Source: Pyropia yezoensis
Lineage: Eukaryota; Rhodophyta; Bangiophyceae; Bangiales; Bangiaceae
DNA: 64,000 nucleotides
NCBI GenBank assembly: GCA_009829735.1
Contig: CM020619.1
Location: 1,122,590-1,186,589, forward strand
Reading direction: 5' to 3'
The translations under genes were made by a program, and so were the position numbers. Shown piece by piece: positions 1,513 to 63,227 of this stretch. The stretch's first letter is position 1; every line of letters begins with the position of its first letter. A model generated the notes under the pieces. That model was not told the DNA's origin. It saw only the letters and a list, made by a program, of their open reading frames with translations, and searched no databases.

Positions 1513-2089
1513 GTGGTACCACGGGGAATCTCGACGAGAAGCGACGCTACCGCCTCATCTGAACAGGAGGGCTTGCTGGATCGTGCCCTGGGCGGTCCGC
1601 TCTTGTTTTGTACCCTTCGGTAACTGCCGGCAACTGAAAATGGAAATCGATGTACACTGTCACTTCCATTGTTTGGCCGCCTTGACTTGGAAGGGGGGGG
1701 GGAGCGGTGGGGAGCACGCGCTGACGGGGTCAGGGGGGGAGGGCGTGAATGGGCAGCGAGAGGACTGGAACCCTCTGCGGGTACATGCGCGCTGGTCAGG
1801 CCCCGCCGCCCGCAGGTGCGCCACCGCCGCCTGCCGCTCCACCATCCTTCAGAGACATATTTTGGCCCAGGAGGGATTCCCGCCCCCCTTCCCCCCCCGC
1901 CCCCTGCTCACAAACGACCCCCCCCACTCCCGCCCCCCGCAACACGTACCCGCCGGAACCTTTCGGCGCTGCACCCACCACCGCACGCAGGCGATGCTCC
2001 ACCTCCCCTCCCGCCCCCCCCCCCTAACGGCCGTACGGGCACCCAACTTTCCACCACTCCACCCCACCGCGACTGGCTGCCACCGCTCG
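1513..2089. other. Intergenic, C-rich; no gene recognised
   Basis: Long C and G homopolymer tracts (notably 1880-2040) generate overlapping open frames on both strands, none with recognisable protein features. It ends at the outer edge of the family A LTR at 2090. Confidence 0.5.
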
Positions 2090-2557
2090 TGTGGCTATAA
2101 CCGCTCGCGCACCGAGCACCCGAGTTGGGGAGGTCCACAAGGGCTGCCTCCCGTGTCGGGGGAAACGGAAGAAGTGCAAGTCGCACACACGCTGTCTCTG
2201 TTGTGGGGCAATCCCCCCACTAACAAACAAGAAGGTGGTGTGTGGGCCAACAGTTTCTTGGTCGAGACGGGGAAGCGAGGCCAAGCCCCGCTGTCCCTCC
2301 CCTTATCCGCCCAGGGTCCTCTCAGAATCTCGCCACTCAGAATCTCCCACCCCAGCACCTGCCCACCGGGCCACACGCAAATCAAGACGAGAAAATGCAG
2401 AAAACCCTCAAATCCATGTTGGATTTACTATCAAGCAAAGTATCTCTGACTTAAGGAAATTCGGGATCAAATGCAAAGGGAGGAACGGGTCAGACCAGTT
2501 GTCCCCCGTCCCAGTATGGCGCGCTCTGCCCCCCTGCGTGGGGCCAGTTCTGCCACA
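2090..2557 (-). repeat. LTR of Ty3/gypsy family A (3' LTR of element A-1a)
   Basis: A 468-bp repeat bounded by TGTGGC...GCCACA, matching 32474-32942, 60850-61318 and 44281-44749 (each 469 bp). In the element's sense (minus) direction it is the 3' LTR. A purine tract (GAGGAGAGGGGAG read on minus, 2558-2570) abuts its inner edge, as expected for the polypurine tract that primes plus-strand DNA. Confidence 0.9.
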
Positions 2558-2604
2558 CTCCCCTCTCCTCAGTTCCGACCGACCCGGTCGGCCCTGAGAA
2601 GGGG

Positions 2605-2611: not shown

Positions 2612-2924
2612 GCACGTGTTGCACTCGCCGGGGGCGCGACTCGCTGTCCCCCGGTACGTCACCTCAACGTGGAGGCAGTCACTTCGACCGTCCTTCTCCT
2701 CAAGCTCGCCCACTTGGTAGCTTGCACACACCTTACCACCACCTTCCCCAACCACTCACCTCACCGCGGGCCACCCCACGCTGGGGAGGCCCCCGGTATA
2801 CCCACGATCCAAGTCCCCCTCAGCTCGAGGTGGGCCTCAGACAGTTGCGGCCTAGTTGCCTCTCCCTAACTTGGGGAGAGGCATGGTGTACTCCGGGGTG
2901 TAGTCTGACTCCCTGGACGAGCGC

Positions 2925-4826
2925 ATGGAAGACACGCCTCGCGTTGTAGCACCCGTCGGGACTTCCGGCGGGAGCTCCACGGTTGCCCCGGGGGATGGGA
3001 TGCCTGCGCCACCCGACACTGAGTTGGCGGCTGGCTCTCCCCCGGATTTAGGCCCCGTCACTCCACGGGAGGCCTTGAGGAGGTGGTTCTACCCACCGTG
3101 GCCCCTGTACGAGGAGGGCTTGACGATCATCCGGTGCGGCCGACTTGGCCCAGCGATGGATCGCGTCTGGGGGCGCCTACGGGAGAAGTTCCCCCGTAGG
3201 GTAGGATTCCCTCCCGACTTCAAGACGGACAAGTTTTCCTTCCTTGACGACGAACAGGTCGAAGACGTGCAGCGGGTCAAGAACTTGTTGACCCGCGGGG
3301 GTACCACCGAGGGCCCCGGCGACGTGCCGACCTTCACGTGGGACGTGGTGGCAACTTGCCCCCCGTTCCTCAGTACCTCCGATCTGCACGTCCATCACTT
3401 CGACGTGCGGATGGAGAAGAGCATCTGACGAGGTCCCTACTTGGTGACCTCGGCTCAGCTTGAGTTTGCGCAACAAGCGCCGGCGAACAAGGAATTACTC
3501 CACCCCAAGAAGCCCGAGTGGTGGCCTCAAGTTGAGGTCCCCTATGAGTTCCCCGCGCTACTACCGCTGTTGGTTGACAACTTTGGCTGCGTCTTGATGA
3601 CGGCTAGCCCGGACCACATAGTGTTTGCCATGTTAGCAACACTCTGGCTCCTCGAGGTCAAGTCGACCTTGGCGGCCTGCGTCCAGAGGCGTCGGATCTT
3701 CTGGCGCCTCCCACCCCATCTGATCCAAGGGTCGGAGCAGCTCCCCCCTCGGCAAGTTGCTGAGGGGTGCTCGTCGGGTCAACTCACTCTACTCGAGGAG
3801 ATTGTGAAGCTCCACAAGCTCATCGAGTGGGAGAGCATCGAGCACAAGTTGCACCAACCTTCCCGTGGGCCCAGAGACGACGGCTTACTTCGCCAGTTCG
3901 TCTGGGTCGGCCATGAACTTCACGACGGCCGCGTGGATCTCAAGGAGGAATTGGGCATCGGGTACTACCCGTATGCCCCAGGAGTGGAGCGCCACACTGC
4001 GCCGCCACCAGAGAAGAACCTCGTGGTTGCAGTCGCCGACCCTGAAGAGCTTTGGGCGCAAGGTGCCGCGGCGGTCTCAACTCGAGGTCGCGGCTACCCT
4101 CGGGCTCCGCCAAGTCGGCGAGCCCATCCTCTTCCTCCTGTTCCGGTCCAGCCGCACGGGGACATCCCGATCGGCATTGCGGTTGAGTTACCCACGCCTG
4201 TGTCCCCCAAATTGGAGGCTACTCTACTTTCGGTCTACCCCAAGTTGGTGTTGCCGTCCGCGCCATTGACATCTGAGATGCTTATTACCACGTTGGTGCG
4301 CACCATTTCGTGGATGGCCGCGTCGGCAGCGACTTTCCAGACATCGGAGCCCCCTCAACTTGAGGAGCGCGTTTGCACTGTCGTCTCGACTGCAAGTTGC
4401 GAGTCGGTTGCGGAGTTTATGACGGCCGAGTTTGCTCGCATCGGCCCCATCATGCCCTCGTCTGCCCCAATTGGGCGCGGCAAGCGTCGGGCGAGCCGTG
4501 CCTACTCTCCTTCTCGTCGTCGTCGCCGCCACCCGCGGCGCTCTCCCCTCGTGTCGGATTACGAGTTGTCGTACTCCAAGTCGGAGTCATCCACCCCGTC
4601 CAAGACCGAGTCGGTCCGTCGTCTGCGCCGCCAACTTGCGAGCAGGACGAAGCAGGCACGTGGCCGCGCTGGTCGTCGCACTCGTGATCGTGCGACTCAT
4701 GACGACTCCGACCTGGAGGCGCCTACTCCACCGACTAGTGGTGACCGTTACCGGCGTGGGTCTCGCCGCTCGCCTCCGCGTGAGAGCGAGGGTCGTGGTG
4801 GTGGAGATTCTAGCGTGCGTGCCTAG
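2925..4826 (+). pseudogene. Antisense ORF (aORF) of family A element A-1a, one in-frame stop
   Basis: A 633-codon frame from ATG 2925 to the stop at 4824-4826, interrupted only by TGA at 3426-3428. The paralogue at 39100-40740 has sense codons there. It lies opposite to pol, whose stop is 111 bp away, tail to tail. No known domain is recognised. The N-terminal ~75 residues are Pro/Gly-rich. A central block contains LVTSAQLEFAQQ, a PEWWPQVEVP motif and WLLEV. The C-terminal ~130 residues are strongly basic with Arg-Ser-rich stretches and many Ser/Glu, compatible with nuclear or nucleic-acid binding (inference). Homologous ORFs occur at the same element position in families B and C. The Arg-rich tail could suggest a Gag-like or RNA-binding role; function is unknown. 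Confidence 0.8.
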
Positions 4827-4937
4827 TTGGCAGCTGCCCTTGTTGTGAGAGTGAGAGCGTTAGGGCTGTAGTTAAGAGCCCCTTTGCGTACCACTTCGAC
4901 TTGAAGCACTTTCTGGGCCTGACCACTTGGTCTTCCC

Positions 4938-5485
4938 TCAAGTTGAGGGAGGGCAATCAGGGTCGATGCCACTCCGGGCGCAGTAAGCCCGGACCTTCTC
5001 AGCGGAAAGGTCTTCCACATACTCCCATGTATCATCCTTGGCGCGGTGGCCAAACCAGCGCACCCTCAACAGGGGGCGGATAGTATCCTCATCCCACCCG
5101 CAGTCGACGAACTGATCGAACACGTACTCCTGCGGACCCTGGTTGGCCGCAGGCAGGTACGGCAGACGCCACGCCTTGAGCGCACGCGCCCAAGTCGGGT
5201 CGCCTGGAGGAGGTGGTCCAACTTTCACCACGTCCTGTCCGTTTACGGTACGGATCCCATCGTCACTTTCGATGGTGAACCGTCGCCCATCCGCACGAAG
5301 GACTTGGTATGGTCCCTTCGTCTGGAACACCAGCTGACCCCCAGTTGGGGCATGCGAATGTGCTAGCACCCAGTCACCCTGCTTGGGGGCGTGCTTAGCG
5401 TTACGTACCTTCTTGTCGGAAGAACCCTTGTACCGCTTCTGCGCTGTGTCCATCTCAGCCCTGACTTCCGGGATGAGCTCTTCAA
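4938..5485 (-). pseudogene. Pol C-terminus with chromodomain (A-1a remnant)
   Basis: This is the tail of a Ty3/gypsy polyprotein: the integrase C-terminal region (RAEMDTAQKRYK, GDWVLAHSH, GPYQVLR) followed by a chromodomain-like segment (LRVRWFGHRAKDDTWEYVEDL). It aligns with the last ~200 residues of the intact pol at 35005-39054. In chromoviruses such domains direct integration to marked chromatin. The upstream protease, RT, RNase H and integrase core are lost at 5485/5486. Confidence 0.9.
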
Positions 5486-6058
5486 TGTAGCATCCCTGGC
5501 CCTGACTTGGCGCCGACCCGGGATGGCGACCACGGGGCACCAGGTACCAGGACACGCCCGCCGTGTGGGAATGGCTGGCGGCCGTGGCCCGTGCCCGGCA
5601 CTGGAATGCGGGGGACTACGCTACCCACACGTGAGAGAGGGACTTCTGATGGGTTTTTGCATATTTGTGAGGGACTTGATTTGAGAGAATTTGAGTGTGA
5701 GATTAGTAAGGGGGAATAGAATTAGTAGTGATAGTGGCCCCCGACCTGACGAGGTTAGACTCGGGTCGGGGCCACTCGGGAGTAAGAGGGGGGCTACCTG
5801 GCCAACGTGCCGAGGCCCCCCCAGATGCACGTTAAGAGGGACAGCGAGGCGGTCTTGGCCCGCGCTCTCAGGGAAAAAGACAACTGCGCTTTTGCTTTCC
5901 TCTTCCCCGTGTGCACTACCGCGCGTGTCTGTTGGCTCTGCCAGCAGGCACGTGAGGCAACAGGCATAACACTCTCGTAGCTCCCCTTTCTGTGTTACCT
6001 GTCCATTTCCCCCGAGGGATACTGGCACGTGTCTGAGAGGATCGAGTTTTATACCACA
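5486..6058 (-). repeat. LTR of Ty3/gypsy family B
   Basis: A 573-bp repeat bounded by TGTAGC...ATACCACA, matching 51115-51684 and, inverted, 62470-63041. The left flank (TTCAA) is pol sequence of A-1a and the right flank (GGCAC) is unrelated, so no target duplication remains. This is a recombination junction or a truncated insertion rather than a clean solo LTR. Confidence 0.85.
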
Positions 6059-7596: not shown

Positions 7597-9400
7597 ATGA
7601 ATACCCCGTCGGGACAACCGGGCAACACGGCCACCATGGGTGACGATAGCGAGGGCTCGTCCCCGCCTACTCCTTCCTCCCCGTGTGGCCCTTCTGCCAC
7701 GCGGATGCCACCCGCCGCCCCAGGCGACGTCCTGATGGACGACGCCGGAAGTGGCCAGGGTGATGCCGGTCCGGCTTCGCCGGCCGAGGTACCTGCCCCG
7801 CCGTTGGCGGACTCAGAGGGGCCTGGCCCCTTCCGTGAAATTATCTCCTTCCACAAGGAGTAGCCCTATCCCCACCCACATCTCGGCGTGGTCACCGACC
7901 GGTGGGTTCAGGTGGATCCACGCCGCATGGCGGGGGTGTGGACAACATTTCGCCATCTCTACCCAGACCTCTACGAGGTCCCGATTGGGACGCCGACGGA
8001 GTGCCTCTTGCTCAGCTTTGTGGACGATTGGAAGCTCGCTCGGCAGCTGGACGACGCATGCTCACGCCGCCCGTTACCACCGGGAACATTGCAGGTCTTC
8101 GACTTGGCGTATTATCCGGGTCCGCTGCCGGTCATTGGGCGACGCCCTCGCGGTTCCTTCCTTCGCCAAGCGTTGGCGGAGCATCGGCACCGTCGGCGCG
8201 ACGGCATCTTTGCCTGCGCAGAGTAACGAAAGGTCGAGTGCTTCATCCACGGAGAGCGCCTCAAGTTGTACCCGGTCATTCCCTCTTGGTGGAGCGACTA
8301 CGAGGTTCCACGCGGCATGGCCGCGCGTATCGGCAACTTAGTTGCCGTACGGGGGAGTCGGCTGATGGCCGACGGCCCAGACTCGGCGGCCAGAGCAGCT
8401 CTGAACGCCTGCTGGCTGGTCGAGGTATCCGACGTCCTGCTTTCCTCGGGGTTGTATTACGGACATGCTTGGCTTGTCCCGATCCCCCTTCTGCATGCTC
8501 TCCAGGAGAGCCCCATTGACGCGTTGTGTCAGGGTATCCCTCAATCCGCGGCATACCTCTGAACGCTTCTCCTACTCATCGAGAAGGTCCATCAAAAGGC
8601 TTTGCCCTCCTTCTTGGGTCTTCCTATGTGAGCTCGTGCGCTGGTACGGTGCGCGAGGTCTTTGACCACCGAGGGAGTTCTCTTCTTAGAAGAAGGGCTG
8701 GGTCACGAGGAGCTACCCTACCCTCCGGGGCTAATGGCCGCCACGCGGGTGCCCATTCCGGAGCCTCGCGTGGAGGAAGAGGGGCCTTGTCTCCCCGAGT
8801 TTTCCAGGAGCGGTATGGCCCGTCTATGCAGCCGACCTCTCCGAGGGGGAGCCATGTTCAAGGCGCGTCATCTTCTGGGCGATCCTTCGGAACGCTCCTT
8901 TCGGGGGAACTATCCCCCCGGCGAGGAGGTTCGGTCGCCTAGCGGACGGCGGGCAACGGTCCCTGAGCCACTGGCTCCCTTCCGTTGGAATGGTCCGCCT
9001 TTGGCGATGCCTCGACCTAACCCGAGCACTACCATAGCGGCGCTGGGGCGGGTCTTTGATCCACCCCCCTCATCCCTTAGGGATGCAGTCGAAGACTCTC
9101 TCGCTAAGGGGCTGTGCCGGGCGTACACGAGCCTGGCGAAGGACATTGCGGCGATTGTCACCACACGTCGGGACTGGCGGGATATTCCCCTGGTGGCGTT
9201 GCCACTGCTATCTCAGTCGGCACTTTCCGACCGCCTGGACCGAGAACTCGGGAGAGCTAACATGGATACCATGGTGCAGATCCCGACTTTGTCCCTTCGA
9301 GGCGCGGCCGAAGCCGCGTACGGTGGTGGAGGACATGGCCCTCGATACCATGATGGGTCCCAGCCCTATGGGCACCAGGGTTACTTATGCATTGTAGGAC
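7597..9400 (+). pseudogene. Antisense ORF (aORF) of family C element C-1, four stops
   Basis: One reading frame runs from ATG 7597 to about 9400 without a frameshift, broken only by TAG 7861, TAA 8224, TGA 8560 and TGA 8629. Blocks shared with the family A aORF include VW..FR..YP, FVDDW versus FLDDE, YPVIPSWWSDYEVP versus PKKPEWWPQVEVP, and ACWLVEV versus TLWLLEV. A later block, GLCRAYTSLAKDIA followed by a second half ending in PLVALPLLS, recurs in the relic at 52501-52878. It is transcribed against pol, whose stop is at 9468. The exact 3' end is uncertain because the frame stays open into the sequence opposite the chromodomain. No known domain is recognised. Confidence 0.75.
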
Positions 9401-9467: not shown

Positions 9468-12400
9468 TTATCCATCTTCTTCTATCCCCCCTAGTGGGAA
9501 CAGTCGGGACCCTAGGGCCCGCCCCCCGATGGGGAGCTTGTGCTTCCGGGCATACTTCAGCAGAGGCGCTCGTGGTACCCCCTTCTTGGGGTGCCAAGTA
9601 TCCCCTTCGGCTCCGTGGCCAAACCAACGGACTCGGAAGTCCAAGTCGGGTTTCCCGTGGTCTTCTTTCACCCATTGGTGGCCGACGATCTGCTCAAACA
9701 CATCCTTCTCCGAGATTTCCTCAGGGCATTCATTGAATGCGTCACGGGCTTCCCGCGCTCGTTTCCACACCGTGTCCCCTGCCTCAGGCGGGGGAGCGCA
9801 TGTGACATTGTCACTACTCTGAGTCTGTTCTCCCGTAGGGGCTTCAATAAGAAACCGTTGACCGTCAGTGCGTAGCTGTGAGGAACCACCCACACTTGGG
9901 CAGCCCTCAACGTACTCGTAATGGTGTCAGCGACCCGTGCCAGCCAATAGGGCGACAAGGTGCGGGGAAGAGGATGGAGGTGGTGACGGTGGTGGGTCTG
10001 GGGAAGAGGACGGCGCGACGTCGGTGGTGATCGAGAGGGTTCAAAGGGTGAAGGTCGTCTTTGGTCTGTGTCTGTGGTTCCCTTCCGGTCTCCCCCGGTG
10101 GCGCCGACACTCACGCACTATATACTCGCGTCGGGGCACCCGAGGTGCCCCAAAGCTTGCGTTTCCCCGTCGCTCCACCGGTAGGCACAAAACGGCCCAA
10201 AAACAAAGCATGGCTCTCAGAACAAAGCATGGGCGGGCGTGCGCACTAAAGGAGTGCAGCCCCAGTTTGCCCCAAACGAAGGGGTCCGGCGTGCGGCGCC
10301 TAGGGCGCCGCCCCAGCTGGCTCCAGACGCCAGTCGGCCCGAAGGTCCGAGAGGCGTGTAAGCACGATTCGATCGAGTCGGCCGAATCGGCCAGCCGGCT
10401 AGCCAGTCACATCGCTGCAATGCTGCAGCGAGGACATTTTAACGGACTCGCCAGCTGTGGCAGATGTGGCTCGTCATGGGTGCTGACGGTGGCGCCTATC
10501 GACAGGCCATGATGGGCTGTCGTTGGCTGCTGTCGTGCGGCCGGCAGACACCGTGAGACAGCGGCTGACTCATCTTGCGTCTGGAAGGTACACCGCGTCA
10601 TGCCCCACAATACAAGGAGTTGATCCATGTTGCCAGGAGTTGATTCGGCAGGATTTGTAAGGAGAGGTCCCAGATATTATCCCTTAAGTATTAGGCATGG
10701 GATTAGGGGGGAAATCCTTACAGTAGCACCATGTACGGTCCCTTCGTCTTGGACGACATTTTGGTTCGCCCCTTAGCATAGGATTTCACACAAACCCAAT
10801 CCCCTTGAGATATAGCCTCGTTGTCTTCTCGAACACCCGCGTCATAGACACGCTTGTAGGCCAGTTGGGCCTTACCCAAATTCTTCCTAACCCTTGGGAT
10901 TAGGTTGCGCAGCTCTTTCACGTATTGAACCGCCGCCGAATCGGCGTCAGGTTCCTCCGTGTCCACGGAGCGTACCTTAAACAAACGTTCAATATTCGAG
11001 GCCTCCAATCGCCGAGGGCTTACGAAGGTCAGTGGGGCAACCCCAGTACTCGAATGTACCTGCATATATTATGTGCAGTCGTCAGTAGGTACACATAGCG
11101 ATCCCATTCCCGTGGGTGCTCGGACGAGTACGTCCGTAGCTGTCGCTTAATCGTCCTGTTATACCGCTCCACTTGACCATTGGTCTGTGGGTGACATGGG
11201 GTCGTGAAGTTTGTGGCGATCCCTAGGAGCCCCATGACTCCTTGGAAGTACACGGCAGCGAACTGAGGTCCGTTGTCCGTGAGCGTAGAATCCGGGATGC
11301 GGTAGGCAGCCACCCAATAGTCAATGAAAGACGAAGCTACCCCAAGGGCAATGGAGTCCGACAGTGGGACGGCTCTCACCAACTTGGTGAAGCGATCACA
11401 CACACACCAGGAGAATAGTGTGACCATTCCCCGTCTTCGGGAGCGGGCCCCACAAGTTCACAGCCGCAGCTTGGAATGGCTCCCGCGCGAGGAACAGCTT
11501 CATAGCAGACGTATGCCTCTTGTCCGATATGCGATTCCTAGTGCATCCTGGGCAGTGATAAACATACCTGTATACGTCCGCCACTAGAGCGGGCCAGTAC
11601 AAGTACTGCCACATCGTACGATACATCTTCCGAGACCCCGGGTGACCCGCCGTAGGCGCGTCATGGTACATTTTCAGTATACGCTTTCGAAGCGACTCTG
11701 GAACGACCCATTGGTTGTTCCCCCTGAGGAGGGAATGGCGACACAGTACACCATCGTCATCTTCGAAGAAGAAGGCATTGCGTTGCCAACGGGCATCCTT
11801 CGGAGAGACCATAGACCCCTCCATGCGACGCTGCTTGCAGAACTCATCCGAATCCTGGGCCTCAATGAGATCTCGGAGCGTACCAAGGCCCTTAGGGCTC
11901 CGGTCCGTAAGGGCCTTTGCTGACCTCGTCACCGCTAGAACGGGGATTTGATCATTCAGAGTTCTCTCATCCAAGGCATCCGTAGGAAGGCGCGATAGGG
12001 CACCAGCCACCTTGTGGTCCTTACCCGGCTTGTGCTTAATCTGGTACGAAAACTCCGCCAAGCGGAGTCTCCAGCCCGTAAGGCGTCGATTGGGGCTACT
12101 TCTCGTCATCACCGAAGTGAGGGCGGAGTGGTCACAACGTGCCAGAAATTCGGTCCCTTCCAAGAAGGAACGCAGGTAGGTCACAGACCATACGACCCCT
12201 AGGGCCTCAATTCCTGTGGCACAATAGTTCCGTTCCGCTAGGCATAAACCGCGACTAAAGTACCCAACGGGGAGATACTCCCCATCCTCTTGCTGCTGCA
12301 GCAAGGTGCAACCCAGCTGCTCATAGCTGGCGTCCACCTCGACAATGAAATGGGCTCCCTCCCGAGGGATGGCCAAAATGGGAGGCTTTAGAAAATAGTT

Positions 12401-14300
12401 GCGGAGCTCCTCGAACGCCGCTTGAGTCTCCTCTGTAGGACGAGGCGGTTCCTTGGCCAGATGTGTACTAGTCAGCATGTTCAGCGGCCGAGCGATACGG
12501 GCGAAATTGGGGACAAACCTTCGGTATGCCCCGCACATGCCCAAAAAACTCTTCAGCTGCGTCTGCGTACGCGGATAATGCAGCCCCTTCAGGGCCTTGG
12601 TGTTCTTCTCATTCACGGCGACCTGCCCTGGGCGGATGACGTGTCCCAGATATTCGACCTCCCTCTGAAAGAGATGGCACTTGGACGCCTTCCGCGACAC
12701 GCCGTTCTCCTTGAGAAGGCTCAATATGTGCTCCAGGTGGTGCAGATGCTCCTCGTCCGAGCGAGAGAAGACGATAACATCGTCAGGATATACGAGGCAC
12801 GTCTGCCACTTCACGACGGCCAGGATAATATCCATGGCCCGTTGAAAAGTCGCTGGAGCGTGGCAGAGCCCAAAGGGCAACCGCGTACATTGCCACGTGC
12901 CTTTATGGCACAAGAAGGCAGTAAGGTGCCTATCCTTCGGGGCAATGGGAATTTGCCAATATCCGACGTCATAGTCTAGGGTGCGAAGCACCCTGGCCTC
13001 CCTTAGGGAGTCCAAACATTCATCCATCCTTGGGATGGGATACGCATCCTTCACCGTAACCAGGTTCAGCCGCCGGTATTCAATACCAAACCGGGGCGTG
13101 CCGTCCGGTTTAGGCATAATCACAAACGGACTAGCCCACTCGCCTTCGGCGGGTTCTATTACTTTCAGCTTCTTCATCCGTTCCACCTGCTCCCCTTCCA
13201 GCTGGCGGTTCTTGGGCCCCTCCTTGTAGGGATGTTGCCGTACCGGGGTTACCCCGGGTTTTAGGCGTATACTGTGTACGATATTCTTGATAAGCCCGAG
13301 GGTACCATCCCATAGGGACTAGTACCTCTCCACCAGCTCCAAGAGCCGGCGGCGTAGGGCGTCAGGAACCTCTCCGAGGTCCACTTCAGAGTGGGCATTT
13401 TCCATCCGGCCCGTAGGGCCTTCACTCAACTTCTGCATCTCCTCTGGGGAGACGTTCAACACCGGTCCTTCGTAGGCCGAGATAGAAGCCACCACCGCCC
13501 CAAAGGGGAGGCGGACCATGCGTGGGGTACGATTCGTAACTTGTACGGTGTATGGGGCATCACAGTTAAGCTCCGCGGGGCCGATAGCCACGTGAACACC
13601 GTACTTGTAGGCGAGACGGGGCTGGCCGTAAATAATCCCGTGGCCCTGGAACTACCCTCTCCCCTTCACATGGGAGATAACCCCAGGCTTCAGCTTCAGC
13701 TTGTGACACAAGCTGAGCTTAACGGTCTTGACCTTAGGACAAGCGCACACGGGGCTCCACCTAGTGGGGCCCGGTTTCACGCCCTCCATATCCCGAAGGA
13801 TGGGGACGACCATCCCTGTCTTGAGGGTGACCGTCTGGTCCTCACAGGAGATGATTTTCACTTCGGTATCTCCGAAGGAGTTACCTAATATGACGGGTAC
13901 CGCCACATTATCGATTACCCCAAAGCAGACGTAGGAAACTTGGTCTCCCACTTGTACGCCTAAGCGCACAGTTCCTCGAATGGGAAGCCACCCTCTTTTC
14001 AAGTCGAAGTACAGTATATTCTCCAGCTCCCCTAGGGGCTGGAGCCTCAATCCCTTAGGAAGCAATGAGCTTCGAATCAGAACAGGCCCGCTTCTGGTGT
14101 CCAAGGCAGCATGTAACGCATGTTCTAACCCTCCAGTAGCAAACAGTTGTACGGCCAGCTGATAGCTGGATCATGGCATGAACGCGCAAAAGACGTTTTC
14201 CCGTTTCACCCCCTTAGGGAGTGCCAATAATGCAGGCTTATTCGTTCGGGGACGGCGCAATATCCTCTTCGGTCCCCCCCCATCATTGGACGCAAGGGGG
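9468..14300 (-). pseudogene. Pol of element C-1: PR-RT-RNaseH-IN-chromodomain, degenerate
   Basis: In minus-strand order there is an aspartic protease whose active site reads DTRSG instead of DTGSG (codon 14095-14093), reverse transcriptase with YPDD (12790-12779) where the family has YLDD, RNase H (EVDASYEQLG onward), an integrase zinc region (H...C-PGC) and core (DNGPQF...QTNGQVERYN), then a chromodomain-like tail (FRVRWFGHGAEGDTW). In-frame stops lie at 14173-14171 (TGA), 13654-13652 (TAG) and 13321-13319 (TAG). Frameshifts occur near 11400 and 11050. An 848-bp DNA insertion (9876-10723) splits the region just before the chromodomain. Organisation otherwise matches the intact pol at 35005-39054. 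Confidence 0.92.
9876..10723. mobile_element. 848-bp non-autonomous DNA transposon with TAG target duplication
   Basis: TAG flanks both sides (9873-9875 and 10724-10726). The ends read CTGTGAGGA and, from the other side, CTGTAAGGA, a short imperfect terminal inverted repeat (8 of 9). Deleting the insert with one TAG makes the interrupted pol frame continuous with the same residues as the intact family A pol at that point, which fixes both boundaries to the base. No ORF of interest lies inside. A 3-bp duplication suits PIF/Harbinger or CACTA-type transposition; the usual PIF target is TWA, so the class is unsure. Confidence 0.85.
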
Positions 14301-14322: not shown

Positions 14323-16043
14323 TCAGGCGTTTCCCGAAGATGATAACTCAGATGAGCTCCCCTTAGGGGAACTCGCTCGCTCTTCCTTCCCCGTCGGGGA
14401 GGGCACGACAGCAGCGACCGCCCCACTCGCACGAGCAGCGGCTCTAGCCGCTCTGCGCTCGGTGCGTGCCTCGGTCATCCAGTTCCGAGTCTCTTCAGGG
14501 AGGTGAGGGCAATCTGCCATCCAGTGTGAAGCACTATTGCAGATATGGCAGGGGAAGGGCTCTCATTTCCCGTCCGTCCCCCGTGACCCCCCAGAGGGTC
14601 GTGACTCCCTGTAGGAAGAACCAGACGCCTCCCCCACCTCCAGATGGGACGACGTAACGGCTGCCAGAGCGCGACGCGCCAAACGACGGGCGTGGCGCTT
14701 TGCGTCTTCCTTAGCGTTTAGCTCTGCGGTGGCGGCCTGAATCCGCCGTCGGAATCCCCTGCCCGTTGGGTGTATTGCACCACCAGCTCGATAGGAGCAT
14801 GGGAGAGGTCAGCTACGTAGTTCCGCACTTTGTGCCGAATCTCCCACCATGTGCCTTGCATAAAGCGGGCTCGGACCTGGCCCGAGGTTTGTATATAACC
14901 ACCTTTAGGGTGGAGCTCCATGAGACGGCGGTGAACCCCCGTCTCCGTCTCATCCTCCCCTTGGGAGGTGCCATTAAAAATGGCCTCCTGTTCATCCAGG
15001 AGATGCTCATCTGCGTACGCGCGCAGAAGCCAGTTCACAAGTTCCAAATAGGAAGTTACTTCCCCGGTGCGCCGGCCGTCATCGACGGACGGACGAATCC
15101 GATATAGGTTCCTCTTCAAGGGATCCTTTGTAAATTCCGGGAGGAGGAGCAAAGCTCGCCCCTCTGAGAGGCCGTTATCATTAGCCGCCTTCACGAAGCG
15201 GTTGAGGAATTCGAAGACTCCCAGAGGAGGGTCTCCCCCCAATTCACAATGGCGACCAAATGTGTTGGTCAGGTTTTTCCGCTTCTCACCCAGGCCTTTG
15301 GCCTCGGTTCCCGATGCTCGGTTGTCCTTGTTCTTGAGAGCATATGTCTCACAATCCAGAAGACTCGCATAGTGGTCGTCAGCCGGAATAATCTTGGGGG
15401 GAATCTCCCGTAGGGGGACTCTCCCCGGTACTGTCTGAGCGGAAGCCGCTCGGACTACAGGTCGCGGGCGCCGACGGCGCTCGGGAGGCGAAGCCTCCCC
15501 TCCGGAATAATCCGAAGTCGACTCATTTGACGAGATAAGATGCCGGCCACGCTGGCGCTCCCGCTTTTGCACACTTCGCTCCACAGAACTCAACCGTTGG
15601 TTGAGTGGAGTCAGGAGGCCGCTAAGGGCATCCGCCATTGCTTTCTTCCATTCCTCCGTAGGAGTATCCGATCCGGGGGCTACAAACGCTCGAGGTGTCT
15701 CCTTAGGAGACGATGCCCCCGTCAGGCGAACAGGAGGGGTGGGCGTTCCCTCAGAACCCATCCCCGCCGCGGGATGGACCCCAGGGCGGTCGCCGAGGCC
15801 GGTTGAATTTCCCCCCTCGCGTCCCGTCCGCGGCGGGAAGAAACGTTCGCCCGATGGGCCTTCCGAACCGATTTCCAGCGAGGTCAGACGGGTGGTCACT
15901 CTACGGGTGGCCAGGTCGTCCACTCCAGCCCCGAGGGCGTGAGTCGGAAGAGCAGCTCTCGTCGCGCTCTCCCTCGTCACGGACGAACCGCCCTCCAAGA
16001 CTCCCGTCTCCCTTCGAGGGGGATTCTGCTCGTCATCAGACAT
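14323..16043 (-). pseudogene. Gag of element C-1 with CCHC zinc knuckle, degenerate
   Basis: It starts at ATG 16043 on minus. An N-terminal low-complexity Pro/Ser/Gly/Arg region is followed by a capsid-like block (FEFLNRFVKAANDN-L-SEG, SYLELVNWLL) shared with the family A and D gags. A frameshift near 14740 and a TGA near 14565 separate this from a canonical CX2CX4HX4C knuckle (14550-14509). The knuckle binds genomic RNA in functional elements. The element is dead, so this is a relic. Confidence 0.88.
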
Positions 16044-16139
16044 CACAACAACCGCGTTCCCTTAGGGAAGACAGAGTACAACCACAGAAGGAGTACGAAG
16101 AAGGGGTAGACCCCTTTGGCCAGAAGGAACCTGGTCCCC

Positions 16140-27501: not shown

Positions 27502-27619
27502 GTGGGTGGGCGGCTGCCTTAAAGGTTTTTTTTTCCCCTCGGGGTTTTTTTTTTCCTCACCTGTGAGCCGGTCTAGCGTGGAAAAATGGCCGTTGGCGTG
27601 GCAAAAACGCAAGGGGCGG

Positions 27620-32473: not shown

Positions 32474-32942
32474 TGTGGCAGTATTGACCCCCAGGTAGGG
32501 GGGCAACACGTGCCATGCAAGGGGCGGCAGGCCACTAGCCTGATCCGTTCCTCCCCCGGCATTTGGGTCCATATTCCCTAAGTTTGGGATAGTTAGCTTA
32601 GTAGTAAATCCAACTTGGATTTGAGGGTTTTCTGCATTTATCGTCTTGAATTTTCGTGTGGCCCAGTGGGCAGGTGCTGGGGTGGGAGATTCTGAGTGGC
32701 GAGATTCTGTGTGGACCCTGGGGGGATAAGGGGAGGGACGGCGGGGCTTGGCCCTGCGTCCCCGTCCCGACCAAGAAACTGTTGGACCACACACCATCCT
32801 CTTGTTTGTCCGTGGGGGGTTTGCCCCACAACAGGGACAGAGTGTGTGCGACTTGCACTTCTTCCGGTTCCCCCGACACGGGAGGCAGCCCTAGCACACC
32901 GCCCCAACTTGGGTGCCGTGTGTGCTAGTGGTTTTTGCCACA
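32474..32942 (+). repeat. 5' LTR of family A element A-1b
   Basis: 469 bp, TGTGGCAGTATTGACC...GTTTTTGCCACA, with 7-bp terminal inverted repeats TGTGGCA/TGCCACA. It is followed after two bases by a primer-binding-site-like TGGTGGAGCAGCAGGGGA (32945-32962). Confidence 0.92.
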
Positions 32943-33061
32943 TTTGGTGGAGCAGCAGGGGACAGAGGTAAACTCTACCTCCAGGTGCACCCGGGTGTAG
33001 GGGGCCCTCTGTCTCAGAGGAACGGTGGTCTTGGACCGTGTCATACGGATCGTCAGCCAAC

Positions 33062-35008
33062 ATGGCTAGCTCGGACCCCCCGTCGTCCGGGGAGTACACG
33101 GGTGACGCACGTACTTCAGTGCCTTTGAATACTGGTGAGACACAGGTGGGTTTACCTGGGGTCGCAGAGGGACTGGAGGTCCCTCAAGCCAGCAGGACTG
33201 GAAGTACGGGCGGGCAACAGGCCACCCCGACTCAGTCGGGAGTTCACTCGGGTGACACTTCTGATGTGGGTGGGCCGAAGTCTGGCCACCGTGTGGTATA
33301 CTCAACGGGAATGTCCCAAGGGGTGAGGACTGTCACCGCGGGTTCCACTCGGGCTGGAGCCAACTTTGGCTTGGAGTCGTCGCCAACTAGGCTTTCGGAG
33401 GACGGTGGACCTCCGTTGGTCGGCGATGGGCTCGCGCCCATGCCCCCGGTTGAGACCCCTGAGGAACGTGGTTACCCCTCAGGTGGACTCCCGGAGGCGG
33501 ACCGAGACTCAACTGGAGTCGACAATCCACTCCTCGCGGAAACTGTCCGTCGGGAGGCGACCAATGTGTTGCGGCAGACTTTGCCGGACCTGGTGGTCAC
33601 GATGACGAATACTATTCTGAATCAGATTGTGGCGAGTTTGCCAGATGGCCTTAATGTCCAAACCGGATTGGGGCTTTCGAGCCCGCAGGCGCAGGGGGAA
33701 TCCCCCCTTACGCCTATCTCTGGTCGCCCCGAACTGGGGGCGACACCTGTGACTCCCAACGAGGGAGCCACACCATACTCGGTGGGGCGTACGCCCTTCA
33801 CGGGGGAGTTCCCCCCGGAAACGCCGGCGGCTACACCAAGCGCGCCGCGCCGGACTACAGGCACTGAGAGTGAACTTACCCCAGTGCCACAGCGGCTGTT
33901 CCCTCAACGTGAGGTGCCGCCCAAGATCCAGGTAGCCAACCCGGTCTACCAGAGGATCTTTGACTGTGAGACCTACGCCCTCCACAACAAGTCGGTGGCG
34001 TATGGTCCTGACCAGGCCCGAGCCATGGGCCGTGCCAAGAAGAATGCACTTCATTCTTTTGGGCACAAAGCGGAGTGGGACGGAGCTCCCCCCCTCCGTG
34101 TCTTTGAGTTCCTACGTCGTTTCACAAAAGCCTGTGACGACAATGCCATAAGTGAAGGCATGGCTTTTTACATGCTACAGGAGTTTACGAAGGGCGACCT
34201 ACGGACAGAACTTATGTCCGTCATGCCCAGCTCCTCAAGTGGAGGCGCTGGGGAGGTGACGTCCTATTTGGAGCTCGTCAACTGGTTGTTGAGAGCCATG
34301 GTTGATGAGGCAGCGTTGGCTTCTCAAGTCGAGGAGTTTACGCAAGCCCATCAGGAAGAGGCGGAGGACGAGTTGTCCTTTGCGGAGCGAGTCCGTAAGC
34401 TCAACAATCTTTGTGGGTTTCTTCATCCACAAGCGGTGGTGAAGAGTCGGTTTGTGGAGGGACTCCATTGGTCAGTCCGGATGGAGACCCGGGAGCATAA
34501 CACTGCCCGGGCGACCCTGGCCGAGTTGGCCAGGTTCGCCTATCGCAGAGGCGAGGCCTACCGCAAGTTGCGGGAGGAACAACGCCAGGAGCGTCAGGCC
34601 GAGTTGGCCAAGGAACGGGAGGAGGCGCGCCAGGCCAGAGAGTTGAGAGAGGCACGCCGAATCCGCAAGGAGAGGGTGGTAGCTGCCGTGGGAACTTCCC
34701 AGGGTATCCCTTCGTCATCCCCAGTCGGGAAGACCCCTCCCGGAACGGACCATCGGTGTTGGAACTGCAACTCCGATGGTCACTGGGCATATGATTGCCC
34801 CAAGTTGAGTAAACGCATCCAACAACTTGTTAGGAATGCGAGTAAAAAGTCGGCTACGAACGAAGTACGTTCACGCCGCGAGGGTGGGTCTCGACCGGTC
34901 GTTGCGGTCGCCACACCCTCGGCGGAGGAGGCGGACACGTCGTCCTCGGACTCGTCGTCTTCCTCCCCGCCCTCAGATTCGGACGCCAAGTCGGCGGGAA
35001 ACGAATGA
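33062..35008 (+). CDS. gag: Gag polyprotein of element A-1b
   Basis: 648 residues from ATG 33062, 120 bp past the LTR. The N-terminal ~280 residues are low complexity (Thr/Gly/Pro/Ser). A capsid-like domain follows (FEFLRRFTKACDDNAISEG, SYLELVNWLLRAM), then a long charged helix (EEQRQERQAELAKEREEARQ region) that is likely a coiled coil, a CX2CX4HX4C zinc knuckle (34757-34798) and a Ser/Asp-rich C-terminus. Gag packages the RNA into virus-like particles. Its stop TGA overlaps the pol ATG as ATGA. The copy at 61438-62469 is nearly identical until it is truncated. Confidence 0.93.
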   Translation: MASSDPPSSGEYTGDARTSVPLNTGETQVGLPGVAEGLEVPQASRTGSTGGQQATPTQSGVHSGDTSDVGGPKSGHRVVYSTGMSQGVRTVTAGSTRAGANFGLESSPTRLSEDGGPPLVGDGLAPMPPVETPEERGYPSGGLPEADRDSTGVDNPLLAETVRREATNVLRQTLPDLVVTMTNTILNQIVASLPDGLNVQTGLGLSSPQAQGESPLTPISGRPELGATPVTPNEGATPYSVGRTPFTGEFPPETPAATPSAPRRTTGTESELTPVPQRLFPQREVPPKIQVANPVYQRIFDCETYALHNKSVAYGPDQARAMGRAKKNALHSFGHKAEWDGAPPLRVFEFLRRFTKACDDNAISEGMAFYMLQEFTKGDLRTELMSVMPSSSSGGAGEVTSYLELVNWLLRAMVDEAALASQVEEFTQAHQEEAEDELSFAERVRKLNNLCGFLHPQAVVKSRFVEGLHWSVRMETREHNTARATLAELARFAYRRGEAYRKLREEQRQERQAELAKEREEARQARELREARRIRKERVVAAVGTSQGIPSSSPVGKTPPGTDHRCWNCNSDGHWAYDCPKLSKRIQQLVRNASKKSATNEVRSRREGGSRPVVAVATPSAEEADTSSSDSSSSSPPSDSDAKSAGNE

Positions 35009-38000
35009 CCGTTGGGGCTGGTCGTCCGAAGCTCACAACGGCAGCCTCGGCCAAGTGGGCCAGGAGGACGAACCAACCGTGCCGGATACTGCGGCGACCT
35101 AAGGGAGTCCGCCCACCTCGGGTAAGACTCCCCAAGAACGTAAACCCACGTCGGGTCATCGCGGTGCTGACGGGTGAGAACTTCCAGGTGGCTGGACGGG
35201 TGCAACTTGCCCCCGGCCGTGCATGCTGTACCCGTATCGTACTTGATACCGGGTCAGGAGCCTCCTTGATACGCAAGTCGCTATTACCAAAGGAGGTGAA
35301 GCTCCAACGCTGGAGGTCCAAAGCTGACCATATGATTGACATCAATGGTGGGGTACTTCCCATCGTTGGTGCCGTGACCCTACCAACTAGGTTGGGGACC
35401 CATGAGGTCGACGTGACCTATGGCGTAGTTGAGAATATATCGGTACCCCTGCTTCTGGGTACCCCTTATGTTGTTACACAAGTGCCTTTGATTTGTGGCC
35501 CTGAGTACTGGGTCAAGTTGATGAATGGGGAGACTATCCCCATCCTTGGTAAGGGAAAGTCTGTGGCTCCTGTGACAGTCTCACAGTCGAAGCCTGTTTG
35601 TTCGGTGAGGGAAGGGTTTACTGCTACCCTGTGTTTAGCCCGCAAAGTCACGTTGCCCCCCAACTCGGTGGCGCACGTTGATGTTGTAACTGATTTTACG
35701 GGGAACGGGTTGGTGCACCCTCACCCCCGTCTTGCTCGCAAGCACCAAGTGCATGTTGCCCTTGGCACGATGGACTCCAAAGCCGGAGTCCCGTGGAGGA
35801 TCCAGGTGATGAACCTGAGCCCGACGCCCAAGTACTTCAAGTCGGGAGCCAAGTTCGGCTATATCGACCAACACGAGGGACCGGCAGTAGCGGTCACCCT
35901 CAAAGCGGGCGCAAGTAGCGACCCGAAGTCCGGAAAGGAGAAGCATCAAGCCAAGTCGGCCGCCTCTCCTCGACCCCATGTGAACATGGAGGGTGTCCCC
36001 CCCAGGTTGAGGGTTCAAGTTGAACGCCTCTTGGACCAATATCACAAGTTGTGGGATGGTCAATTGGGACTCATGAGAGCCACCCAACACCAGATCGAGT
36101 TGAAGCCCGGTGCACCCCCTATACGCCAACAACCGTATAGGGGAGGACCTCGTTCAAGGGCCCTCGTTAAGGAGCAAGTTGCTCGCATGGAGGCCCTCGA
36201 TGTGATCGAGGCCAGCAACGCCGAGTGGGCGAGTCCGGTGGATATCGTCCCCAAAGTTGATGGGACCCCCCGGTTTTGTATCGACTACCGTAAGCTCAAC
36301 GAGAGCACGGTGAAGGACAGATATCCCCTACCTAGGATGGATAACTGTCTGGACTCTCTGGGGGAGGCAAACGTGTTCTCTACCCTGGACTGTAACGCGG
36401 GGTACTGGCAAATTCCCATTGCCCCGGAGGACAGGCATAAAACTACCTTTACCTGTCACTGTGGTACCTACCAGTGCAAGCGTCTACCGTTTGGTCTGTG
36501 TAACGCGCTGGCAACTTTCCAGCGCGCTATGGACATGATTCTGGCCGGAGTACGGTGGCAGATCTGTCTTGTGTACCTAGACGATATCATTGTGTTCTCC
36601 CGAAGTCCGGAGGACCACATTGGCCATCTTGGCCCGGTGTTCAAGCTACTTGCTGACGCCGGTGTGTCACTGAAGGCGAGTAAGTGCCACCTCTTTACTC
36701 AAGAGGTGGAGTACTTGGGACATGTTGTCTATCCGGGGCGTCTCAGTGTTAACGAGAAGAACTTGAGGGCCATTCGTAAGGCTCAGCACCCCCGGACCCA
36801 GACCCAGATGAGGAGCTTCCTCGGGATGTGTAACGTGTACCGACGTTTCACTAAGGGCTTCGCCAAGGTGGCGAAGCCGTTGAATGAGCTAGTGAGCTCA
36901 ACGCTACCGAAGAACCTGCCTCCCCCAAGTCGGGTGGAGCAGGAATCCTTTGAGACTCTTCGGGACCTTCTGCTGAAGCCCCCCATCTTGGCTATTCCCA
37001 GGTTGGGAGGCCACTACACCCTGGATGTGGACGCTAGCTACGACCAACTTGGTTGTGTGTTGCTTCAGCAGCAGCCGGACAAGGAGTACTTGCCGGTGGG
37101 ATACTTTAGTAAGGGGCTGAACTCGGCCGAGAAGAACTACGGAGTCACCGAGTTGGAAGGACTCGCAGTGGTGTGGGCGGTGACGTCACTTCGTCACTAC
37201 CTGGAGGGTGAGAAGTTCCTCATCCGCTGTGACCACCGCGCGTTGCAGTTCATCTTTAAGACGGACTATACGAACACTCGTCTCAACCGGTGGAGGGTGC
37301 GACTGGCACCCATCAACTTTGACATTGAATACCGACCTGGCAGGCAACATGCCCTTGCCGACGGCCTCTCTCGGGTACCTACCGAGGGGCTGGACACTAA
37401 CCCAGTCGATGAGGACATCCCCATCGTGGGGGTAGTCACGCGCTCGGGTCAGGCGTTGAACCCCGAGGCGCCAGGGAACAAGAAGTACTTGCCCCTGTCC
37501 CTGGACGAGGTGGTGAAGGCCCAGGCCGAGGATCCCTTCTGCAAGTCGCAGAGGGATACACTGGATACAGTGGTAGAGACGCGTTTCTTTCTGGGAGACG
37601 ATGGCCTCCTCATGAGGAGGGGGGTATTCCAGGGGACCGAACAACTTGTCGTCCCCGCATCCCTCAAGGACAGTATCCTTGAGAGGGAGCACAACGCTCC
37701 CACGGGTGGACACCTGGGGTCTAGTAAACTGTACCAGATCCTGAGGACCAGGTACTACTGGCCGTCCATGGTGGTGGACATCTACAGTTGGGTGGCTGCC
37801 TGCACAAGTTGTGCACAGAATCGTCTGATGGAACGGCGGCCTACTACGGCTATGCTATTGTTCCCGGCCAAGGAGCCCTTTGCCGCGTTGGCGATGGACA
37901 TCCTTGGGCCACTGCCAGTGACCGAGGAGGGCAACCAGTACCTCCTGGTCATCTGTGACCGCTTCACGAAACTTACGCGAGCGGTCCCACTGGCAGAATT

Positions 38001-39054
38001 CACGGCCATGTCGGTCGTGTCAGCCTTCCTAGATCACTGGGTTGCCGCCTATGGCATCCCAGATAGTACACTATCGGACAATGGACCGCAATTTGCGTCT
38101 GTACTGTTTCAGGGAGTGCTGGATATGTTGGGGGTTAAGGCAAACTATGCCACCCCCTACCACCCACAAACTAATGGGCAGGTGGAGCGCTTCAACAAAA
38201 CTATTGTTAGGCAGCTGCGCCACTATGTGAGTGAGCACGTGAAGACGTGGGACCAATACATTTCTATCCTTACTACTGCCTACAATTCGCAGGTTCACTC
38301 ATCTACAGGGGAAGTACCCCTCGCTTTTGTGACCCCCCGTCGTGTGCGGTCTATTGCCGTGCGGCGGTCGCTCCCAACTAGGGAGGATGGTGGCAGTACG
38401 CCTACTCCTACTGAGAGTAAGGCGGAGTTCGCCGCTAGGCTTGAAAAACTCATTCCTAAAGTCAGGGCTGAGATGGACAAAGCACAAAAGCGCTACAAGC
38501 GTACCTTTGACAAAAAGGTGCGCAATGCTAAACATGTCCCCGAGCAGGGTGACTGGGTGCTGGTACACTCGCACACCCCAACTGGGGGTAAGCTGGTATT
38601 CCAGACGAAGGGACCGTACCAGGTCCTTCGTACTGATGGGCGGCGCTTCACCATCGAAAGTGACGATGGGGTCCGCACAGTGAACGGACAGGACGTGGTC
38701 AAAGTTGCACCACCGCCTGCAGGCGACCCAGCTTGGGCGCGTGCTTTGGAAGCGTGGCGCCTCCCCTCACTGCCTGCGGCCAAACAGGGCCCGCAGGAGT
38801 ACGTGTTCGATAAGTTCATCGACCACGGATGGGATGAAGACTCTGACCGCCTCATGTTGAGGGTGCGTTGGTTTGGCTACAAAGCCAAGGATGATACGTG
38901 GGAGTATGTGGAGGACCTTCCCGCTGAGAAGGTCCGGGCGTACTGTGCCCGGAATGAGATAGACCCTAACAGCCCTCCCTCAACGTGTGGGAAGGCCGAG
39001 CAACAGTGCCAAGAGAGTGCTTCAAGTCGAAGTGGTACGCAGAGTGGCTTTTAA
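35005..39054 (+). CDS. pol: Pol polyprotein of element A-1b (PR-RT-RNaseH-IN-chromodomain)
   Basis: An intact 1349-residue ORF. Aspartic protease DTGSG at residues 81-85; reverse transcriptase about 395-590 with YLDD at 524-527; RNase H from about 670 (DVDASYDQLG) to 790; integrase zinc region (HNAPTGGH...CTSC) near 900-940; DDE core Asp965, Asp1025 and Glu1061, exactly 35 residues between the last two; chromodomain-like tail near 1275-1330 (LRVRWFGYKAKDDTWEYVEDL). PR-RT-RH-IN order defines Ty3/gypsy; the chromodomain places it with chromoviruses. It is expressed after gag in the -1 frame with an ATGA overlap, so reinitiation or frameshifting is expected. Confidence 0.95.
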   Translation: MTVGAGRPKLTTAASAKWARRTNQPCRILRRPKGVRPPRVRLPKNVNPRRVIAVLTGENFQVAGRVQLAPGRACCTRIVLDTGSGASLIRKSLLPKEVKLQRWRSKADHMIDINGGVLPIVGAVTLPTRLGTHEVDVTYGVVENISVPLLLGTPYVVTQVPLICGPEYWVKLMNGETIPILGKGKSVAPVTVSQSKPVCSVREGFTATLCLARKVTLPPNSVAHVDVVTDFTGNGLVHPHPRLARKHQVHVALGTMDSKAGVPWRIQVMNLSPTPKYFKSGAKFGYIDQHEGPAVAVTLKAGASSDPKSGKEKHQAKSAASPRPHVNMEGVPPRLRVQVERLLDQYHKLWDGQLGLMRATQHQIELKPGAPPIRQQPYRGGPRSRALVKEQVARMEALDVIEASNAEWASPVDIVPKVDGTPRFCIDYRKLNESTVKDRYPLPRMDNCLDSLGEANVFSTLDCNAGYWQIPIAPEDRHKTTFTCHCGTYQCKRLPFGLCNALATFQRAMDMILAGVRWQICLVYLDDIIVFSRSPEDHIGHLGPVFKLLADAGVSLKASKCHLFTQEVEYLGHVVYPGRLSVNEKNLRAIRKAQHPRTQTQMRSFLGMCNVYRRFTKGFAKVAKPLNELVSSTLPKNLPPPSRVEQESFETLRDLLLKPPILAIPRLGGHYTLDVDASYDQLGCVLLQQQPDKEYLPVGYFSKGLNSAEKNYGVTELEGLAVVWAVTSLRHYLEGEKFLIRCDHRALQFIFKTDYTNTRLNRWRVRLAPINFDIEYRPGRQHALADGLSRVPTEGLDTNPVDEDIPIVGVVTRSGQALNPEAPGNKKYLPLSLDEVVKAQAEDPFCKSQRDTLDTVVETRFFLGDDGLLMRRGVFQGTEQLVVPASLKDSILEREHNAPTGGHLGSSKLYQILRTRYYWPSMVVDIYSWVAACTSCAQNRLMERRPTTAMLLFPAKEPFAALAMDILGPLPVTEEGNQYLLVICDRFTKLTRAVPLAEFTAMSVVSAFLDHWVAAYGIPDSTLSDNGPQFASVLFQGVLDMLGVKANYATPYHPQTNGQVERFNKTIVRQLRHYVSEHVKTWDQYISILTTAYNSQVHSSTGEVPLAFVTPRRVRSIAVRRSLPTREDGGSTPTPTESKAEFAARLEKLIPKVRAEMDKAQKRYKRTFDKKVRNAKHVPEQGDWVLVHSHTPTGGKLVFQTKGPYQVLRTDGRRFTIESDDGVRTVNGQDVVKVAPPPAGDPAWARALEAWRLPSLPAAKQGPQEYVFDKFIDHGWDEDSDRLMLRVRWFGYKAKDDTWEYVEDLPAEKVRAYCARNEIDPNSPPSTCGKAEQQCQESASSRSGTQSGF

Positions 39055-52500: not shown

Positions 52501-53513
52501 CTAGGGAGCCCGATACTGGCCGTAGCCATAGGCTGGACAGCCACCTCGAGGGTCCGCGGACGGACCACTCCAGTGGGCCGTCTCCGCTGCTTGACGAAGG
52601 GAGACGCTAGGAATAGCAATCTGCATGTCCGCGTTAGTGCGATGAATCGCTCGCACCTCACGGAGCGCCTCCGCCGACAGGAGGGGCAAAGCCACTCCAG
52701 GGATGGCACGCCAACCCCCTCTGGTGGACGTGATGACAGCCAACTCGTTGGCAAGGCTCGTATAGGCCCGGCAGAGGCCCGTCACTAATGAATCCCGCAC
52801 CGCCCCCGAAAGACGCGGCAGGGCCCCAAAACCACGCTCCAAGGCCACCTCCGTTGTCCCCGCAACGGGACGCGGCATGGCGAGGGGATCATCCTCCTAA
52901 TGGAAGTCGGCCACGGTCTGCGGCACCAGGGCCGTCCGCCCTTGAGGCATCTGAACCATCTGTCAAGGGAAGAGCCATCGCGCTCGGGAAGGAGGTGGGC
53001 GAGCCCGACCTGCGTCGGGCGCTGACGTCGGTCGACCGGGTGCAGCCCCCGATCCGTGAAGCTCCTGGCCAAAGCCAGCGGTAAGCGGCCCCTCCTCCCC
53101 GAGGAGAGGATCCAATGGAAGAACATGTTCGAGCAGGAAAAACCCGCTCACGTCAGGGAGGTCCTCATGACACATCCCCTCGCGGAATTGAAGAACACCC
53201 TCAGGAGTCATCTCCCGGCTGCAACAGGCCACCCCACGGGCGTGCTTTGCAGAGCCAAGGAGAGAGGGCGTATCCAAGCCATGGACTTGCTCCACCAGGT
53301 TGAGGGTGGCCTCGAAGAGGGCCACCATGCCAGGGTTGTCAGGGCACAACGCCGACGGCGTCACAGCGCCGAATGGCCTCCAACAGAGGCAGAGAGATGA
53401 GCCAAAGGTGGCCCTGGTAGCGGACGGCCCTGGCCAAAGTGGAGGCCGTAGCTACCTTCTAACAAATGTAGAAGCTGGCCATCACCGCCGAATCGGTGGG
53501 GCCCTTGACCATC
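52501..53513 (-). pseudogene. aORF relic, 3' half (family C-like)
   Basis: Homologous to the second half of the C-1 antisense ORF: MTPEGVLQFREGMCHEDLP versus its TTEGVLFLEEGLGHEELP, and GLCRAYTSLANELA versus GLCRAYTSLAKDIA. In-frame stops lie at 52965-52963 (TGA) and near 52899 (TAG), with a frameshift near 53365. It is continued by the 5' half at 57046-57504 across a 3.5-kb insertion. Confidence 0.78.
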
Positions 53514-63041: not shown

Positions 63042-63227
63042 TAGCTCCCTCCCTAGTCCGGCACGTCCTCGGGCCGAACCAGGTGCCACCGTGCACAGCC
63101 TCGAGCACGTCCACACCGGTGCCGGGGTCGAGCGTCTTCACCCCGGTCACAATCACTTGCCCCGATTCTGCCCCCCCCCCCTCCGCTCCTTCACCTTGGC
63201 CCTCTCGTTCCCCGGAGTCTGGACGGT

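Follow-up and report, generated by a model that had tools for sequence, protein, structure and literature searches.

Flowering plants and a fungus are known to have antisense genes at the 3' end of some of their long terminal repeat (LTR) retrotransposons. Maize Grande (gene23), rice RIRE2, bean PvRetro13 and fungal Boty each carry an antisense accessory open reading frame (ORF) between pol and the 3' LTR, and the Grande ORF is transcribed from its own promoter and is nuclear (PMC7264820). Retand also has an antisense ORF, with a TRP28 domain (PF04195). In the human T-cell leukaemia viruses, the regulatory proteins HBZ and APH-2 derive from an antisense transcript of the 3' end, an analogy of arrangement only (PMC11963269, PMC7264820). 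LTR retrotransposons are the predominant repeats of the genome of the red alga Pyropia yezoensis (PMC7423979). A stretch of 64,000 nucleotides of this genome (contig CM020619.1, positions 1,122,590 to 1,186,589; the window) contains three families of Ty3/gypsy elements, here called A, B and C. An original prediction made from the sequence alone had claimed that each carries a large ORF opposite gag-pol, between the end of pol and the 3' LTR, and had pointed out that antisense ORFs were already known elsewhere, as they are in plants and a fungus. Searches with complete copies (tblastn) place the ORF there in all three families, the arrangement described as aORF-3R in PMC7264820. With a probability of about 0.6, it is an accessory protein-coding gene of one red-algal Ty3/gypsy lineage, held in the same antisense place since before the A, B and C families split, whose protein helps the element to multiply. 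It is likened to the Grande, RIRE2, PvRetro13 and Boty ORFs by arrangement. The literature searched, with most subscription papers outside its reach, did not describe any antisense ORF in LTR elements of red algae, and the main text of the P. yezoensis genome paper mentions neither 'antisense' nor 'gypsy' (PMC7423979).

Two A copies, the beginning of a B copy, one C copy and a C-like relic lie in the window (tblastn with complete copies). The antisense genes and the element parts that flank them are as follows, in window positions:

2084..2565, minus strand: 3' LTR of the first A element (A-1a, an A' copy), upstream of the antisense gene on the antisense strand (self-BLAST, LTR comparison)
2883..4826, plus strand: antisense gene of A-1a; tblastn match 2883-4823, all 647 residues homologous, stops at 2901 and 3426, no net frameshift
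4878..5486, minus strand: end of A-1a pol (C-terminus), which meets the antisense gene tail to tail (self-BLAST, tblastn)
7597..9363, plus strand: antisense gene of family C, with four in-frame stops and a compensated frameshift (tblastn, frame translation)
9534..14272, minus strand: broken pol of the C element (tblastn with A pol)
34846..39054, plus strand: pol of the second A element (A-1b), with reverse transcriptase (RT), RNase H, integrase and a weak chromodomain match (Pfam)
39100..40733, minus strand: antisense gene of A-1b, C-terminal 543 of 647 residues, no stop; tblastn match 40731-39103
52576..53512, minus strand: C-like antisense relic, C-terminal part (tblastn)
57037..57497, minus strand: C-like antisense relic, N-terminal part (tblastn)
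62468..63042, minus strand: 3' LTR of the B element; the start codon of the B antisense gene follows after 185 nt (self-BLAST, LTR comparison)
63228..64000, plus strand: antisense gene of family B, residues 1-257 of 708; tblastn match 63228-63998, cut by the window end

These coordinates amend the original prediction in places. The first A gene ends at 4826 as proposed and starts at 2883 rather than 2925; the second A copy lies where it was put (39100-40740), with homology lost at 40733 and about 104 N-terminal residues missing. The relic assigned to 52501-57504 survives as two C-like pieces on the minus strand (57497-57037 and 53512-52576). Frames interrupted only by point stops without frameshift describe the A' copy, with its two stops, and do not quite describe C, which has four stops and a short compensated frameshift.

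The predicted antisense proteins comprise 647 aa in A, 708 aa in B (full-length gene in locus L031) and about 600 aa in C. Pol lies on the opposite strand in each family, as seen by tblastn in the window for A and C and at locus L074 for B, where the integrase end and a chromodomain-like segment, 40% identical to A pol over 278 aa, occupy the other strand. On the antisense strand of young A copies (L002, L003), a 469-bp LTR is followed by a 338-nt leader, the start codon and 647 codons, and the antisense gene ends 117 nt from the end of pol, both stops counted. The leader in B is 183 nt (L033), and the antisense and pol frames of C end 149 nt apart (L055). Further copies were sought in 107.5 Mb of the same genome (11 contigs). 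As anticipated, homologues are present in other elements of this genome, with at least 84 matches for A, 148 for B and 114 for C; those scored are the best 84 of 3433 candidates for A, the best 148 of 707 for B and at least 114 for C. No stop interrupts the matched 513 residues in 83 of these 84 A copies or the match in 145 of the 148 B copies; the C copies are decayed. An A-type RT lies on the opposite strand at 2855-2857 nt in 39 of the 84 best-scoring A copies, and none was found on the same strand within 8 kb of any of the 84, RT matches being the best 150 of 4084. In the single copy inspected of another chromodomain-bearing Ty3 family (L073, RT with a 1186-aa open frame), no antisense homologue was detectable after pol.

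Two trivial origins of the frame were considered and ruled out. A chance open frame in GC-rich DNA does not account for it: the longest stop-free frame of the 2.4-kb A region spans 724 codons and exceeds all 2000 first-order resamplings (median 200, 99% point 360, maximum 447). Nor is a sense-strand frame the source of the constraint, given that the other five frames of the A pair hold 9-24 stops per sequence.

The proteins of the three families had been proposed to be homologous, and profile comparison bears this out for two of the three pairs. Homology of A and C is firm (hhalign gives probability 97.8, E 9e-13 and a score of 102.7, where 60 column shuffles reach at most 29.1; BLASTP E 4e-20). 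That of A and B is significant (hhalign probability 49.8, E 1.7e-4, score 41.7 against a maximum of 27.4 in 60 column shuffles; BLASTP E 2e-8). B and C alone are not significantly similar (hhalign probability 2.5, E 0.019, score 27.2 against 22.3 in 60 shuffles), as one of 18 comparisons with unrelated window proteins, a host decoy against B, scored 27.5; their relation rests on A. Identity between antisense proteins is about 27-30% for A-C and about 23% for A-B, and that between pol proteins is 47% over 971 aa for A-C and 40% over the last 278 aa for A-B. Since the pol proteins of A, B and C are related, a single ancestral gain of the antisense gene suffices.

The antisense gene is under purifying selection. 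The ratio of nonsynonymous to synonymous change (omega; Nei-Gojobori, antisense frame) is 0.234 between A copy L002 and A' copy L071 (Fisher p 3e-36), with a mild bias from L071 having been picked for its lack of stops, 0.187 between B copies L033 and L072 (Fisher p 3e-16) and 0.179 between C2 copy L057 and C1 copy L058 (Fisher p 4e-56). Two further C2-C1 comparisons give 0.170 (L069 and L058) and 0.116 (L055 and L052). Pol yields 0.222 in A and 0.115 in C, the A pol pair and the A antisense pair being different copies, so that the antisense protein is conserved like other element proteins (0.23/0.18 versus 0.22/0.12), as in an aORF-3R. Decayed pairs within subfamilies give higher values: 0.65 for A', 0.58 for C1 (p 0.12) and 0.27 for C2.

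Selection is also visible in young copies outside the parts used as queries, and a ratio near 1 there, on which the prediction might have foundered, is not seen. The A loci L002-L030 were ranked on similarity to the last 513 residues, which under-represents nonsynonymous changes in that part; a young-copy pN/pS (nonsynonymous to synonymous polymorphism) of 0.073 was set aside as biased low for this reason. In the ranked part of 19 intact A copies, shared changes are 63 synonymous and 7 nonsynonymous, and singletons 40 and 41. The 134 N-terminal codons of A lie outside the query. There, changes shared between copies number 20 synonymous, 3 nonsynonymous and 1 stop among 28 of the 29 copies (L011 dropped), a pattern that differs from that of singletons (p 0.0001). 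For B the query covered residues 1-257; beyond it, 448 codons compared across 12 copies show 40 synonymous against 13 nonsynonymous sites (pN/pS 0.12), and 451 codons across 6 copies show 19 against 9 (pN/pS 0.18). Truncation affects 2 of 20 B copies. The end of pol behaves similarly in the 12 of 19 A copies in which it is open (shared changes 21 synonymous to 1 nonsynonymous, singletons 41 to 40). Shared changes that are mainly synonymous and singletons that are near neutral imply selection on the spreading lineage, with single copies decaying after insertion, as for pol.

A non-autonomous derivative of family A that lacks the RT, RNase H and integrase core and keeps the antisense gene is a new observation here. 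Six of the 29 loci L002-L030 (L009, L018, L019, L024, L026 and L027; 0-4539) have a common in-frame pol deletion, equivalent to window positions 36175 to 38184, which takes out RT, RNase H and the zinc and catalytic domains of integrase (domain places from Pfam). Five of the six have a second joint that fuses the N-terminal part of gag to pol downstream of the protease, and the sixth differs upstream. A protein query spanning the pol joint recovers the joint in full from 62 copies (216-236 bits, next 155), of which 45 keep a stop-free frame of 377 codons. The derivative retains the antisense gene: with a 3.47-kb DNA query that starts shortly ahead of pol and extends to the upstream frame of the antisense gene, all 40 copies scored, each among the 62, keep the whole gene (full length at 96-100%), 38 of them without net length change. 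The matched antisense stretch is stop-free in all 15 of the 62 that appear among the best-scoring antisense matches. Selection on the gene within the derivative itself is suggested by the six loci, in which 19 synonymous sites stand against 5 nonsynonymous ones in the unranked antisense N-terminus, compared with 34 against 29 in the pol remnant (p 0.048); with the ranked part included, the antisense counts are 64 and 15 (p 0.0009). Over the final 265 codons of pol, changes shared between copies number 10 synonymous to 7 nonsynonymous in the derivative versus 25 to 1 in full copies (17 of 21; four without an open frame dropped), with p 0.004.

The original prediction that the protein matches no described family stands within the databases searched. 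Seven antisense proteins have no Pfam match at E up to 10, a sequence search of the PDB returned nothing convincing (best E 0.021), and viral contigs and plasmids hold no relatives. A protein database search, in which about 8000 candidates were scored per query and whose sensitivity is limited to relatives sharing short exact words, gave a single near-identical match per query, P0001 at 97% to A and P0002 at 97% to B. AlphaFold models are unusable (mean pLDDT 31.4 for 576 aa and 42.5 for 296 aa). Unlike the antisense ORF of Retand, the algal proteins have no PF04195 match in any of the seven or in the genome. Retand, a non-chromovirus lineage, may further differ in its pol, which in the algal elements ends in a chromodomain-like segment with a Chromo match below cut-off; its pol-3' LTR region measures 2.9-6.6 kb, and that of family A about 2.4 kb. 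Six published conserved TRP28 positions are matched 3 times in A, 5 in A', 4 in B and 3 and 3 in C; the five of six in A', reached by 3 of 2000 shuffles, are treated as chance among five tests. Membership in TRP28 is not assigned, and a very remote relationship to it is possible.

The remaining features of the window concern the bodies of the elements. The Ty3/gypsy assignment follows from LTRs, a gag zinc knuckle and pol with the domain order RT, RNase H, integrase (Pfam coordinates); these three pol domains of A exceed the Pfam cut-offs, and the Chromo match (18.7 bits) falls under its 25.1-bit cut-off.

14721..16061, minus strand: gag region of the C element, 41.7% identical to A gag over 228 aa (sequence comparison)
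32474..32942, plus strand: 5' LTR of A-1b, 469 bp (self-BLAST, LTR comparison, tblastn)
32972..35008, plus strand: gag of A-1b with CCHC zinc knuckle (Pfam)

The A-1a element is broken at 5485 by a B-type LTR. B-type LTRs at 5485-6060 and 62468-63042 sit inside A-type elements, and an A-type LTR and gag at 60840-62469 are severed by the B insertion. A minus-strand fragment resembling the N-terminus of the C antisense protein lies at 60165-60344 (41.7% over 60 aa, E 2e-5), and a third, diverged gag-like stretch at 41498-42124 (29% to A gag over 209 aa). Arrays of direct repeats (~100 nt at 27613-28435; ~90 nt at 31974-32243) fall within overlapping long frames.

The gene's place and strand, the selection on it and its retention agree with an accessory protein of the element. 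On the best reading, this protein would act as do those of the antisense ORFs in Grande, RIRE2, Retand and Boty but come from a separate, unnamed protein family. A separate antisense mRNA would start in the 3' LTR or in the leader of 183-338 nt before the start codon and be translated into a protein of 65-80 kDa that would help the element to multiply. By analogy, and from the basic arginine/serine-rich tail of family A, its putative role is that of a factor associated with nucleic acids or chromatin that acts on expression of the element, on silencing or on the pre-integration complex, which is a guess. The suggestion in the original prediction that the protein could regulate or accompany transposition is compatible with this picture. 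Several observations weigh against an accessory protein of this kind. B has only a short RRRR and C neither RRRR nor a basic tail, and TATA-like sites on the antisense strand differ in place between A' and B and are missing from the A copy scanned; a separate promoter scan, with a bacterial consensus, says little about an alga. Among the N-terminal codons of A, singletons are near neutral (15 synonymous, 30 nonsynonymous), and 3 of 28 young A copies (L015, L028, L030) have a stop within the 134 antisense codons at this end. The derivative shows a modest contrast between unranked antisense part and pol remnant (p 0.048), its remnant still lies below neutral, and the difference in the last 265 pol codons disappears when singletons are included (27/20 versus 50/40 in full copies, p 0.86). 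Derivative and full copies have no fixed difference in the antisense gene, which recombination between the two could therefore also preserve intact. One N-terminal stop is shared between A copies, by which a truncated form may have spread.

A narrower version of the accessory-protein reading can be put forward tentatively, namely that the protein is a mobility factor mainly for its own copy. A derivative that borrows capsid, reverse transcriptase and integrase from full elements would then still need its own antisense gene, which would be under selection there; since the derivative keeps the gene, the protein may act with a preference for the copy from which it is made.

A trans-acting anti-silencing or otherwise host-directed factor is unlikely. 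Mobile-element accessory genes outside gag-pol often face host silencing, the VANC proteins of plant VANDAL transposons being an example of such an anti-silencing factor, and the faster divergence of the antisense protein than of pol agrees with a protein of this type. A purely trans-acting factor could, however, be lost by the derivative, yet the gene is kept in all 40 scored copies.

Capture of a host gene as cargo is improbable. LTR elements are known to capture genes (PMC7264820), but the protein has no host-like Pfam domain and its gene occupies the same place in three diverged families. Among the best-scoring genome matches, which are element copies, there is no host homologue, a weak argument. 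Regulation by the antisense RNA itself, through pairing with gag-pol RNA and with the open frame a by-product of a GC-rich genome, is very improbable. Antisense transcription with double-stranded RNA effects has been proposed for plant elements (PMC7264820), and a sense transcript reading through to the 3' LTR would run across the antisense gene. Selection at the codon level, seen in several independent comparisons, and a frame longer than in any of the 2000 resamplings nevertheless largely refute this explanation, although the RNA may act in addition to the protein. An envelope-like or particle structural protein is scarcely credible, for although the gene sits where retroviral env does, on the other strand, a hydropathy scan of four proteins found no strong membrane segment (highest 19-residue mean 1.23-1.57) and there is no Pfam or PDB match.

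The red-algal lineage adds an independent case to the 3'-end antisense genes of LTR retrotransposons. It combines three diverged families and numerous young copies with a pol-less derivative in which the gene persists, and its evidence of selection is strong. Should the protein be unrelated to TRP28, such genes were acquired by elements more than once; should it be related, the gene would be very old. The derivative suggests a way to ask whether proteins of this kind act in cis or in trans, and if the protein does prefer its own copy, LTR retrotransposition would include, in a lineage distant from plants, a self-preferring component encoded in antisense.
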